From Halorhabdus sp. CBA1104 (GTDB lineage: Archaea > Halobacteriota > Halobacteria > Halobacteriales > Haloarculaceae), in the NCBI RefSeq assembly GCF_009690625.1, contig NZ_CP033878.1, positions 1,054,001 through 1,118,000 on the forward strand: a stretch of DNA of 64,000 bases, given 5' to 3'. Position 1 is the first letter of the stretch. Each line of letters opens with the position of its first letter. Position numbers and translations under genes: made by a program. Of this stretch, positions 44,428 through 48,330 are shown in pieces. Under the pieces are notes generated by a model. The model ran no database searches. It was not told where the DNA came from and worked only from the letters and a program-made list of their open reading frames with translations.

Positions 44428-45630
44428 TCAGCGGCACGCGACTGACCGGGCGATCTCGATCAACGGAGCCGCAGAGAGGCCAGTTGCAGCGACGGAGTAG
44501 CGAGCGTCCGCACACGTCCAAGAGATGCGGAGTTCGGTACCGATATTCCGAAGGGTTGCGGTTTCCGATCCGAGAGTTACGTTCCGGCCCTCCGTACGGG
44601 GCTGGTACCAGGTGAGGTTGCTCTTCGAGACGGCCACGGTCGCCGTCTCGTTTGCGTAGCGCAGGCCGATACTCCGGACGTTCCCGACTGTTCGAGTCGC
44701 CTCGCGAAGGTCGAACGAATCCGGGAGCGTCGGCTCCGGAACGGAGTAGTTTGTGACAGCCTGTAGCTGTGCGATATCGACGAAGTGGCTCTGTGTCGGC
44801 GACTCATCCGTTTTGATAGTCGCCTCCGCCGGCGGATCGAATTGGAACCGCTCGGACGACAGTCCGGGATTAAACGTAACGTTCTCGTAGTTGACCGTTA
44901 TCGTGACAGGTGTCCCATCACGGTTGTACGTAGTCGTTCGTTTCAGCGGCACGTACCACTCTTGGTCGAGCCAGACACGCTGTGAGAAGTCCGAGACGAC
45001 CCCGGTCGCGTTCGTCGTCGACCGAAGGGAGAGGACGTACGTCTCCCGGCCAGCGACAGTCGCCGTACCATTGTACGTGACAGTGATTTGCCCGGCGATT
45101 CCGCTGGTGGTCCCATCACGCTCGCTGGCGACAGGGACGACGGGAAGTGGATCGACACTCCCTGCGGTCGCTGGGCCATCTGCCGCTCTCACGACGGCGA
45201 GGAGCCGGCTAATCCGATCGCCGCTCGACGAGTGGTCCGTCTGGGAAATATCGATCTGGATTGCCGTTTGGGCATCGTCGTCGTACAGCCAAAGCTCGGT
45301 CCCGTTTGCCACTTTCCGTTCAGGCCACCGCGGGTCGTCGTGGAGATCCTCGATGCGATACTGACCGGTACCTGGGCGTACCCAGACGCGTTCGACCGAC
45401 TCACTCGTCGTGTTGCCCCGCTCGTAGACCGTCTTTCTGAGACCGACGAGCCCATCGAGGCTAGCCCGCTGTTCGTCGACGTCGTCGAACGCTGGGACGG
45501 CGTCGGGTGGCTCGGCAGCGACCCAGACGCCGACCGCGAGACTCGCGAGAAAGACCACGCTGACCACCGCAACGATCTGCACCGTGGGCCTCGAACGCAG
45601 TCGATCCATCCAACTGTGCGGGAAAACCAT
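44428..45630 (-). CDS. Membrane-anchored LolA-like / DUF2092-type protein
   Basis: A 400-residue exported protein. One N-terminal membrane anchor (TVQIVAVVSVVFLASLAVGVWV, key part near residues 17-38) is followed by a long beta-rich domain with the lipoprotein-sorting look: RVWVRPGTGQYRIED, GTELWLYDDDAQTAIQI, and the VWLDQEWYVPLKRTTTY strand pair. A second domain (FDLREATRTVGNVRSIGLRY) follows. Many N-glycosylation sequons (NTT, NGT, NYT, NYS). Likely surface role in haloarchaea; ligand unknown. ATG 45609 is an alternative start. Confidence 0.75.
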   Translation of the reverse strand: MVFPHSWMDRLRSRPTVQIVAVVSVVFLASLAVGVWVAAEPPDAVPAFDDVDEQRASLDGLVGLRKTVYERGNTTSESVERVWVRPGTGQYRIEDLHDDPRWPERKVANGTELWLYDDDAQTAIQIDISQTDHSSSGDRISRLLAVVRAADGPATAGSVDPLPVVPVASERDGTTSGIAGQITVTYNGTATVAGRETYVLSLRSTTNATGVVSDFSQRVWLDQEWYVPLKRTTTYNRDGTPVTITVNYENVTFNPGLSSERFQFDPPAEATIKTDESPTQSHFVDIAQLQAVTNYSVPEPTLPDSFDLREATRTVGNVRSIGLRYANETATVAVSKSNLTWYQPRTEGRNVTLGSETATLRNIGTELRISWTCADARYSVAATGLSAAPLIEIARSVACR

Positions 45631-45686: not shown

Positions 45687-46091
45687 TTACTGTTCGAGGG
45701 CGTCGGCGATCCGTTCGAGTTCGCGTCGCACGTCGTGAACTTCGTCACGAAGCTTTCGCATCTCGCGGGTGAGTTCCTCGTTGCCGCTGTCGCTTTCCTC
45801 GCCTTCGGGACCCATCTGTCCGGGACCGCGACCACCCGGTCCGCCCGGGCCGCCGCCCATCATCCCACTCATCATCTGGGCGAAGGGGTTGCCACCGCCA
45901 CCCATGCCCGGGCCGCCACCCATGGCTTCTTCCATACGCTCGCGGCGATCCTCCATATCCCGATCCTCGCCCTCTTCGGCGCGTTCCTGTCGGATCTCCT
46001 CGACGCGCTCGCGGAACGATTGTTCCTCGTCGTCGCCGTTCTCAGCGTCTGTCGATGGCTCGCCGTGCTCGCTTTCGTTGTCGTCTGCCAT
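45687..46091 (-). CDS. Charged coiled-coil protein with Gly/Met-rich centre, unknown function
   Basis: A 134-residue protein in three parts: a very acidic and Arg-rich helix (EEQSFRERVEEIRQERAEEG), a low-complexity Gly/Met/Pro-rich middle (GGGPGMGGGGNPFAQMMSGM), and a C-terminal coiled coil (REMRKLRDEVHDVRRELERI). No family recognised. The Met/Gly-rich linker between two coiled coils suggests oligomer or scaffold formation. The start is ATG 46091; the frame upstream is arginine- and serine-rich and unlikely. It is the last of three adjacent minus-strand genes. Confidence 0.65.
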   Translation of the reverse strand: MADDNESEHGEPSTDAENGDDEEQSFRERVEEIRQERAEEGEDRDMEDRRERMEEAMGGGPGMGGGGNPFAQMMSGMMGGGPGGPGGRGPGQMGPEGEESDSGNEELTREMRKLRDEVHDVRRELERIADALEQ

Positions 46092-46134
46092 GTGGCCGAG
46101 AAACGTCGCGCGGTGGAAAAGCGTTCCGAACAAT

Positions 46135-46464
46135 TCAGGATTCGAATCGACGACGGACGAGTACAGAGAGCCCGATCGCGACCAGCCCGAGCACGACGAG
46201 GTTAAAGACCGCCCTGAAGATCGACTCGTATTCTCTGGCCACCCAGGTATCGATCGCGCCCATCGCGCTCGTGTACGCCCCAAAGACGGCGATGATACCG
46301 AGCAGTGCAAGGACCGCGACCGCGCCGAGTTCGAGATACTCGACGATCTTGCCAGCGCGATCATCAGTGACCGCCCGGCCAGGATCGTCGGCCGCGTCGC
46401 TGTCAGTCGCTCGCTCAGCTTCGCCGTCGGTGCCGTTGGATTCGCCCGTTGAGTCCGTTGTCAT
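46135..46464 (-). CDS. Two-helix membrane protein with acidic N-terminal tail
   Basis: A 109-residue protein. The first 40 residues are Asp/Glu/Ser/Thr-rich and probably disordered; two membrane helices follow (VAVLALLGIIAVFGAYTSA and FNLVVLGLVAIGLSVLV) and the end is basic (RRRFES). The ATG overlaps the stop of the upstream gene (ATGA), indicating one operon. Unknown function. Confidence 0.65.
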   Translation of the reverse strand: MTTDSTGESNGTDGEAERATDSDAADDPGRAVTDDRAGKIVEYLELGAVAVLALLGIIAVFGAYTSAMGAIDTWVAREYESIFRAVFNLVVLGLVAIGLSVLVRRRFES

Positions 46465-47447
46465 TGTCGACCTCCTAACCGCGAGACGAGACCGATCCCA
46501 GCGAGGGCAAGCAGGGCAGAAATAACTCCCAGTCCAGGGCCGGATGTCGCCGTGGGACGCGTCGGGCCGTCCGTCTCGCCCACGTCCTCGGCCTCCGTGA
46601 AGTCCTCGGCCTCGAAAGGCACGCTCTCGAAGGTGGTATCGGCCTCGATCTCTCTATCCGGGTCCAGATCCGCGATCGAAGACGCGGAACTGACGATCAC
46701 GCCGTCGTGTTTCAAGATTGCATCCAGATGATACCCGTAGCCGCTGGGGACTGTCAACTGTGCGTCCGGCGCGACAGCCTGTCCGGAGTCGAGTCGATCG
46801 ACGTCGATCGTCGTCCGGTCCGCGACGACATTCGAGTCAGACTGTCGAGCGACCAACTCCAGCGTCGCGCCCTCGGCAGGGTCGACACCCGCATTCCAGA
46901 GGTGTGTCCGGACGGCCAGGGTGGCCTGCTCGTCTCCAGCCGCTTCGATCGTATAGTCGATAGTCGGGATCGCCGTCTCGAAACGCTTGAATTCGATCGT
47001 CGTCGGGGAGAGTCCGGCGACGCCGTGGATCGAGCCGCGTTCGACGTCGATTCGTTCCCCATCGCTGTAGAGAATCGCCACGAGATCGTAGCCACCCTCG
47101 CGAGCAACCGTCAGATTCGTCCTCGACCGGTGTTCGCGATCGCCGGCGATCTCGCCGACTTGGGTCGACGTTTCGGCGGCGACCAGCCCGGACTCGGCAT
47201 CGACGGCCCGAATCGTGAGCGAGACGTTGTCGGCTGGCCCACCCCGATGATCGAGGGCCACCCCAAACTGAACGGTCACGGCGTTGCCGGTCACTGCCCC
47301 CGGAGCGACAGTCACCTCGTCGATATCGAGATGACTGGGCGCGTCAATGTCGTGTGTGGCAACGGCACCCGGGACGAGGAGGAACGTGGCCACAGCGAGG
47401 ACACACAGGAGCGCGGTCGCGGCAGCGAGATACCCTTCGCGTCGCAT
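46461..47447 (-). CDS. Secreted surface protein with PGF-CTERM-like anchor (DUF7490-like)
   Basis: A 328-residue exported protein. A signal peptide (YLAAATALLCVLAVATFLLV, about 6-25) is followed by two related beta-sandwich repeats (IDIDEV/IEFKRFE starts), each with a VSL or LEL strand and SDGERIDVERGSI type turns, and a linker rich in Glu and Thr. The C-terminus has the PGF-CTERM plan: GPGLG, a hydrophobic helix VISALLALAGIGLVS and a basic end RLGGRQ, though the tripeptide reads PGL not PGF. Such anchors are processed by archaeosortase ArtA. It heads a three-gene cluster. Confidence 0.78.
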   Translation of the reverse strand: MRREGYLAAATALLCVLAVATFLLVPGAVATHDIDAPSHLDIDEVTVAPGAVTGNAVTVQFGVALDHRGGPADNVSLTIRAVDAESGLVAAETSTQVGEIAGDREHRSRTNLTVAREGGYDLVAILYSDGERIDVERGSIHGVAGLSPTTIEFKRFETAIPTIDYTIEAAGDEQATLAVRTHLWNAGVDPAEGATLELVARQSDSNVVADRTTIDVDRLDSGQAVAPDAQLTVPSGYGYHLDAILKHDGVIVSSASSIADLDPDREIEADTTFESVPFEAEDFTEAEDVGETDGPTRPTATSGPGLGVISALLALAGIGLVSRLGGRQ

Positions 47448-47532: not shown

Positions 47533-48330
47533 TCAGTCGAACGACCCGAGACTCGCCTGGACCTCCCGGTCCGGTTCCGTCGAAGTGACCCCATAGCCCA
47601 CGAGATCGCGCATGTCGACGGCGTAGACGGTGCCGTGGCGTTGAAGGACAAGCACTCGCCCCTTCGTCCCACGAACGGAGCCCGTCAACAGCGTCTCCGC
47701 GATGGGTTGGCCTGTCAGTTCCAGGCCGTAATCGAAGGCGAATTGCTCGCGGACGTCGAAATCAGCCAGAAGCTGCTCCCAGGCATCCCGATCGACGCTG
47801 CGATGGAGCCCAGCTCGCTTGCGATCGACGCGAACGCGATCGCCGACTGTCTCGGCGATCTCTGCTTCGATCTGGCGGGCGATCCGGCCGTTCTCGACGG
47901 TCCGAACGTGTGCCGCCCGATCGGCCCCCTGCTCGCGAAGCCGGGTGTCCAGCCGCCAGGATCGCGTCACACCGACTTTGAAGATGTCGGGGGCAAAGGC
48001 CGCCAGATAGATCGCGTGTTCCTCGCGGCAACTCTCGCGTGGGAGGTCACAGTCACCCCGACAGCGGGCACAGGGCCAGCGATCGGTGTGTTGTGGACAG
48101 GATGGCGCTTCTGGCGCGTTGCAAGCCAGGTGACGACCGTCGTCGATCGTCCCAGCACAGTGGCGGGCCTCAAGCGTGTAGGTCACCCCCGTTCCGGGGG
48201 TGAGCCCTTCGCGATCGATCTGGCCGTCTCGGGCGAGCAACAGCGCTGGGTCGGATTCGCCAGCGCGAGTACTGTAGCCGACAATCTGCACGGGCGGGTC
48301 TTCGATCGAGAGGATCTTTACCGTTAGCAT
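47533..48330 (-). CDS. DUF2797 family zinc-binding protein
   Basis: A 265-residue protein with a central cysteine cluster (CPQHTDRWPCARCRGDC, then ESCREEHAIYLAAFAP) that probably binds zinc, and a GIY-YIG-like stretch (IFKVGVTRSWRLDTRLREQGA). DUF2797 proteins occur in haloarchaea and actinobacteria; a nuclease activity is suspected from the fold but unproven. It is divergent from the DsbA-like gene. Confidence 0.8.
   Translation of the reverse strand: MLTVKILSIEDPPVQIVGYSTRAGESDPALLLARDGQIDREGLTPGTGVTYTLEARHCAGTIDDGRHLACNAPEAPSCPQHTDRWPCARCRGDCDLPRESCREEHAIYLAAFAPDIFKVGVTRSWRLDTRLREQGADRAAHVRTVENGRIARQIEAEIAETVGDRVRVDRKRAGLHRSVDRDAWEQLLADFDVREQFAFDYGLELTGQPIAETLLTGSVRGTKGRVLVLQRHGTVYAVDMRDLVGYGVTSTEPDREVQASLGSFD

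Follow-up and report, generated by a model that had tools for sequence, protein, structure and literature searches.

Several described archaeal systems resemble parts of the locus reported here. In the VARTIG modules of Thermococcales the C-terminal domain is hypervariable and the downstream genes change; as described in the accessible part of the published account, these modules combine a secreted protein of the Ig/CARDB type with membrane-associated genes downstream (PMC8416519). The S-layer protein of Methanospirillum hungatei has six Ig domains and a PGF-CTERM and forms a lattice; as far as the accessible text goes, its Ig-like domains are accompanied by a spacer and a PGF tail that is anchored in the membrane (PMC11641113). 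In Haloferax volcanii, according to the accessible portion of PMC7157517, archaeosortase A sorts PGF-CTERM proteins, which carry a signature, a hydrophobic helix, and a basic end; that paper also describes an artA deletion.

The locus in Halorhabdus sp. CBA1104 shares features with each of them. It encodes P1, a predicted exported protein with two Ig-like domains and a sortase-type tail, and, immediately downstream, the small membrane protein P2. A secreted Ig-type protein followed by a membrane-associated product is the arrangement of the VARTIG modules, too; there, however, the downstream genes vary, whereas here P2 is the constant downstream gene in 80 of 80 loci (compared with the accessible part of PMC8416519). 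P1 has Ig-like domains, a spacer, and a membrane-anchored type of tail in common with the M. hungatei protein as it appears in the accessible text, but only two such domains are present in P1, and its partner gene is fixed (compared with PMC11641113). With the H. volcanii substrates it shares the signature region, the hydrophobic helix, and the basic end, and the gene for the enzyme is present in the genome; unlike them, P1 of this genome has PGL as its signature, and the accessible portion of PMC7157517 mentions no membrane partner dedicated to such a protein. In terms of domain families, P1 is a clear member of PF24318 (DUF7490), whose description gives neither a function nor a partner gene. 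The fold type is shared with CARDB and other Ig-like (E-set) domains (PF07705), although DUF7490 scores far above CARDB. Known archaeosortase substrates have, to our knowledge, been treated as single proteins. What appears to be new, judging from the sequences, is that a putative Ig surface protein of the archaeosortase type has a membrane hairpin as its near-obligate partner. Neither a paper naming DUF7490 nor a published account of the P1-P2 pair was found in the literature searched, in which subscription papers are largely absent, and the pair is not described in the accessible part of PMC5244752. A surface protein that keeps one small membrane partner throughout a phylum, both in haloarchaea and in the further classes sampled, provides a test case for how archaea place and hold their surface proteins.

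The window is the whole stretch of DNA that was analysed, 64,000 nucleotides long; it comprises positions 1054001-1118000 of the single contig (2,628,395 bases) that makes up the genome. A sequence-only reading of the window had proposed a cluster of three minus-strand genes, P1, P2, and P3, with an ATGA overlap between the first two and the third following by 43 bp, and this arrangement is borne out (Table 1). The three open reading frames (ORFs) are genes and not chance occurrences, because P1 matches DUF7490 with 199.5 bits and all three have conserved relatives.

Table 1. Features of the P1-P2 locus and its flanks (window coordinates; contig coordinates in brackets)
Feature	Position	Strand	Evidence or remark
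P1, 328 aa, exported, two DUF7490 Ig-like domains and sortase-type tail (predicted)	46461..47447	-	PF24318, 199.5 bits
P1 domain 1 (DUF7490)	47019..47333 (contig 1101019-1101333)	-	121.6 bits
P1 domain 2 (DUF7490)	46665..46976 (contig 1100665-1100976)	-	87.6 bits
P1 C-terminal tail: PGL at residues 304-306, hydrophobic helix, basic end	46464..46538	-	sequence and model helix 307-324
ATGA overlap, P1 stop and P2 start	46461..46464	-	sequence
P2, 109 aa, with an acidic N-terminal tail of variable sequence and a membrane hairpin of two helices (predicted)	46135..46464	-	
P2 hairpin, residues 39-107, with conserved turn	46144..46350	-	80 haloarchaeal and 20 non-haloarchaeal P2s
P3, 134 aa, acidic Gly/Met-rich coiled-coil protein	45687..46091	-	neighbour, judged outside the P1-P2 module
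DUF2797 gene, flanking marker; adjoins P3 where P1-P2 is not between	47533..48330	-	

In the Pfam scan the DUF7490 match of P1, which falls into two stretches, passes the curated cut-off of 27 bits, and in a profile search of the whole genome both DUF7490 matches lie in the P1 gene. P1 has two hydrophobic stretches, one at the N-terminus (residues 4-34) and one at the C-terminus (302-326). Its AF2 model (mean pLDDT 85.2) consists of a helix at residues 2-24, two beta-sandwiches of seven strands each, and a C-terminal helix. The best Foldseek matches in the PDB are Ig-like-domain proteins, for example, transglutaminases and GH2 glycosidases. Domain 2 aligns with 5t9a_C over 106 residues (VIA-align; Z 15.1, rmsd 1.5), an alignment that barely covers domain 1. 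As modelled, both domains have the seven-strand beta-sandwich of the Ig-like (E-set) fold, which is a common type and gives no pointer to an enzyme activity. A sequence search of the PDB with P1 gave two matches only (E 0.28 and 0.43), and no P1 was found on PLSDB plasmids. The closest named relatives are those of Halorhabdus salina (84% identity) and Halorhabdus amylolytica (68%), and the mean column identity of the P1 alignment is 49%. When 59 sequences chosen from the 80 named loci and the window were scanned for families at E <= 0.1, DUF7490 was matched by all 59, CARDB by 50 (best E 1.9e-8), and PGF-CTERM (PF18204) by 42; P1 of the window is unmatched by CARDB. A second copy of the pair, in Haloglomus irregulare (L182:4272-6119), has both genes in one ORF. 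Its N-terminal part is apparently out of frame, and it may be a fusion or a decaying copy. The single ORF was set aside as proof of P1-P2 function, since that part seems to be in the wrong frame.

The description of P1 as a PGF-CTERM-like surface protein holds for its predicted export and for its tail, in which the signature is followed by hydrophobic residues (the stretch 302-326), a helix, and arginines near the end. It does not hold for the signature itself, which is PGL and not PGF, nor does the PGF-CTERM model PF18204 match P1 of the window. PGF is found in 77 of the 80 named haloarchaeal P1s and in 18 of 20 from outside the haloarchaea; PGL occurs in two named loci (L113 and L114), both from Halorhabdus, and the one P1 with neither signature is that of L182. 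Because PGL stands in place of PGF, processing of P1 in this genome is uncertain. Archaeosortase A is encoded in the window genome (TIGR04125, E 7.3e-79) and is above cut-off in 281 of 294 genomes drawn from the phylum. It is thus nearly universal there, and having the enzyme is not a distinguishing feature. By a strict pattern, 10 of 20 non-haloarchaeal P1s carry a lipobox-like cysteine close to the N-terminus, compared with 3 of 80 haloarchaeal ones.

P2 had been read as a small two-helix membrane protein, and this is supported: it has hydrophobic stretches at residues 39-71 and 79-107 and is coupled to P1 far beyond the haloarchaea. Its model, of middling confidence (mean pLDDT 66.9), has helices at residues 35-71 and 77-108 and a disordered tail. 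Conservation across the P2s, 80 from haloarchaea and 20 from elsewhere, is highest in the turn that joins the two helices. Residues kept across P2s are Y64, I71, W74, Y79, F83, A85, F87, N88, and L89; conservation in haloarchaeal and other P2s is 99% and 85% for Y64, 94% and 100% for I71, 72% and 70% for W74, 79% and 80% for Y79, and 99% and 55% for N88. Hydropathy and charge, namely the basic C-terminal residues, suggest that both ends of P2 are inside and the turn is outside. P2 has no family in Pfam or NCBIfam, where it gives scattered weak matches below the cut-offs, and no sequence relative in the PDB up to E 1. Automatic annotation would therefore leave it as a lone hypothetical protein.

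P1 and P2 very probably belong together as one near-inseparable pair. With P1 as the bait, all 80 named haloarchaeal loci have P2 directly after P1 and in the same orientation (the single ORF of L182 is counted); without L182, 76 of 79 pairs have overlapping frames. With P2 as the bait, P1 is found upstream in 31 of 31 loci, including the window. Among 242 Halobacteria genomes, 149 have both genes, 91 have neither, one has only P1, and one has only P2; weak DUF7490 matches (E 0.001 to 4e-5), present in ten genomes, are not counted here as P1. The Fisher value for these counts is inflated in significance by the relatedness of the genomes. Both single-gene exceptions look like remnants of decay. 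The P1-only genome G093 (locus L205) carries pieces of P1 in different frames without P2, and the P2-only genome G142 (locus L204) has no P1 and matches the P2 model in its second half alone. Since 91 of 242 genomes lack the pair, its function is either dispensable or dependent on the lineage.

The pair is also found outside Halobacteria with the same gene order, and it is therefore much older than the haloarchaea. In the draw of 294 genomes across the phylum, 144 have DUF7490 over the cut-off and 126 match a widened P2 profile, which was built partly from 20 non-haloarchaeal loci inspected directly. P2 adjoins P1 in all 20 of these loci, with overlapping frames in 16 of the 20 pairs. Among the matches listed, which are those with the better DUF7490 scores, P2 comes right after P1 in 66 of 72 non-haloarchaeal genomes. 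As for the six exceptions, in G494 P1 is on the minus strand and starts at base 423 of the contig; P1 and P2 are on different contigs in G391; the frames in G304, G311, and G317 are 193-198 aa long, which leaves no room for two domains and a tail; and P2 was not found in G457. At DUF7490 E <= 1e-8, 120 of 137 genomes of the draw have P2 and 17 are without a P2 match, while 6 of the 126 P2 genomes lack a P1 match at this threshold. Some of the P1-only cases in the phylum come from short frames with a single domain or from the ends of contigs. When the neighbours of 40 loci were clustered, no third gene family recurred near the pair across all lineages; the neighbours are lineage-specific. Upstream of P1, one haloarchaeal genome (L218, G086) and several non-haloarchaeal ones (L226, L229) have an ORF that we take to be HisF-like, which may be an old gene order.

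The reading that we consider probable is that P1 and P2 form a two-gene operon whose products make a membrane-bound surface complex, where P2 stays as a hairpin, and that P3 is separate. P1 would be exported. Its two Ig-like domains would lie on the outer side of the cytoplasmic membrane, and the hydrophobic tail at its C-terminus would be embedded in it; in most relatives this tail would be cut and a lipid put on by archaeosortase A. P2 would form a membrane hairpin with its ends inside, and its conserved turn would meet P1 beside the membrane, where it may hold P1 or hand it over to be anchored. Production of the two proteins would be kept in step by the overlapping start codon. It is a rather doubtful extension that the pair is an ancestral, phylum-wide element of Halobacteriota, in which an Ig protein fastened outside the membrane at both ends (by a signal helix or lipobox cysteine at the N-terminus and by an archaeosortase tail at the C-terminus) is seated in P2 as a socket, serves as a spacer or clamp between membrane and S-layer, and is lost only as a unit.

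P2 could instead be a substrate-specific helper of archaeosortase A, which presents the P1 tail or removes the cleaved tail and then leaves mature P1. Such a role fits a partner that bears a PGF tail in nearly all haloarchaeal and most other P1s, in genomes where the enzyme is present. It fits less well with the window genome, where further PGF-CTERM ORFs are present but a single P2 match is found, and with the pair being kept in Halorhabdus despite the PGL signature; we regard it as distinctly improbable. We give somewhat less than an even chance to the view that P2 stays with P1 as a structural partner and does more than help in sorting. Another arrangement with Ig domains outside and a membrane hairpin would be a translocon-associated pair near the Sec channel, similar in outline to eukaryotic TRAP. 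Two of the 59 scanned P1s do show weak TRAP_beta matches (best E 0.0012), but CARDB matches are far more frequent and stronger in the same set, no Sec gene was recognised among the recurring neighbours, and the patchy presence of the pair is ill-suited to a core export factor. This explanation is scarcely credible, and a surface complex of P1 and P2 is preferred to it.

The sequence-only reading had joined all three genes into one envelope-spanning system with P3 as the inner scaffold. The genes are indeed adjacent on the same strand, and P3 is Gly/Met-rich as had been said (20 Gly and 8 Met in residues 51-98), with a net charge of -23 and no hydrophobic stretch. P3 lies near the pair in 19 of the 22 loci from the window's own family and in none of the nine from other families (31 loci, window included; tblastn); it falls within the fetched flanks, some of which end early with the contig, in 31 of the 80 named loci. 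The expected adjacency of the three genes in other haloarchaea is thus not general. The P3 HMM, moreover, matches all 242 Halobacteria genomes, including the 91 without P1-P2. In the phylum draw it matches 53 of 294 genomes, all in the window's own order, and P3 was not found there in the other classes that hold the pair. Several Haloarcula loci have about 1.2 kb and another ORF between P2 and P3. A single system of three genes is very unlikely on these grounds, and the scaffold role assigned to P3 has to be given up. P3 is a separate core haloarchaeal protein with no family in Pfam or NCBIfam (scattered weak matches stay below the cut-offs), and our search found no literature on P3-like core proteins. 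Its position next to the pair is most simply read from the DUF2797 gene. In seven loci this gene adjoins P3 without P1-P2 between, at a distance of 45-187 bp; in the window, 1,441 bp lie between the two genes. The pair is absent from the genomes of two of these loci (L093 in G005 and L094 in G006), which belong to the same genus as the window, and in another (L105, G054) the pair lies elsewhere in the same genome. In L107, which is without P1, DUF2797 and P3 are 1,505 bp apart. Most simply, the DUF2797-P3 order would be the older one, and P1-P2 would have come between the two in the Haloarculaceae-like family. P3 may still be co-transcribed with the pair in that family and have an unrelated function, which would be compatible with the two-gene reading. 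The 43-bp gap and the conserved order in the family point this way, but P3 is retained throughout, also where P1-P2 does not precede it, and hence can be expressed from other contexts; we consider co-transcription possible, though on the unlikely side. P3 is best read as a bystander of the P1-P2 module.

Some further observations concern the surroundings of P3. Weak matches of P3 in the PDB search (CWC15 and others; best E 0.0019) were dismissed as an effect of composition, P3 being acidic and of low complexity. The genes near P3 in the window are, we presume, those for TFE and a tRNA methyltransferase, and a zinc-finger-like ORF of 90-110 aa that is often near P3 (L108, L109, L102, L107, L111, L040) is presumably RNase P component 4. 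By these identities, P3 would lie in an RNA-related neighbourhood. The ORF after P2 at L041:9712-10068 looks to us like archaeal NAC. Two loci of one genus (L055:10037-11086 and L061) have an ORF of 346-349 aa with a twin-arginine-lipoprotein-like start between P2 and P3. Downstream of P3 in the window, the gene at 44428-45630 gives weak LolA-like and DUF2092 matches below the cut-offs, and its relatives adjoin P3 mainly in the window's genus.
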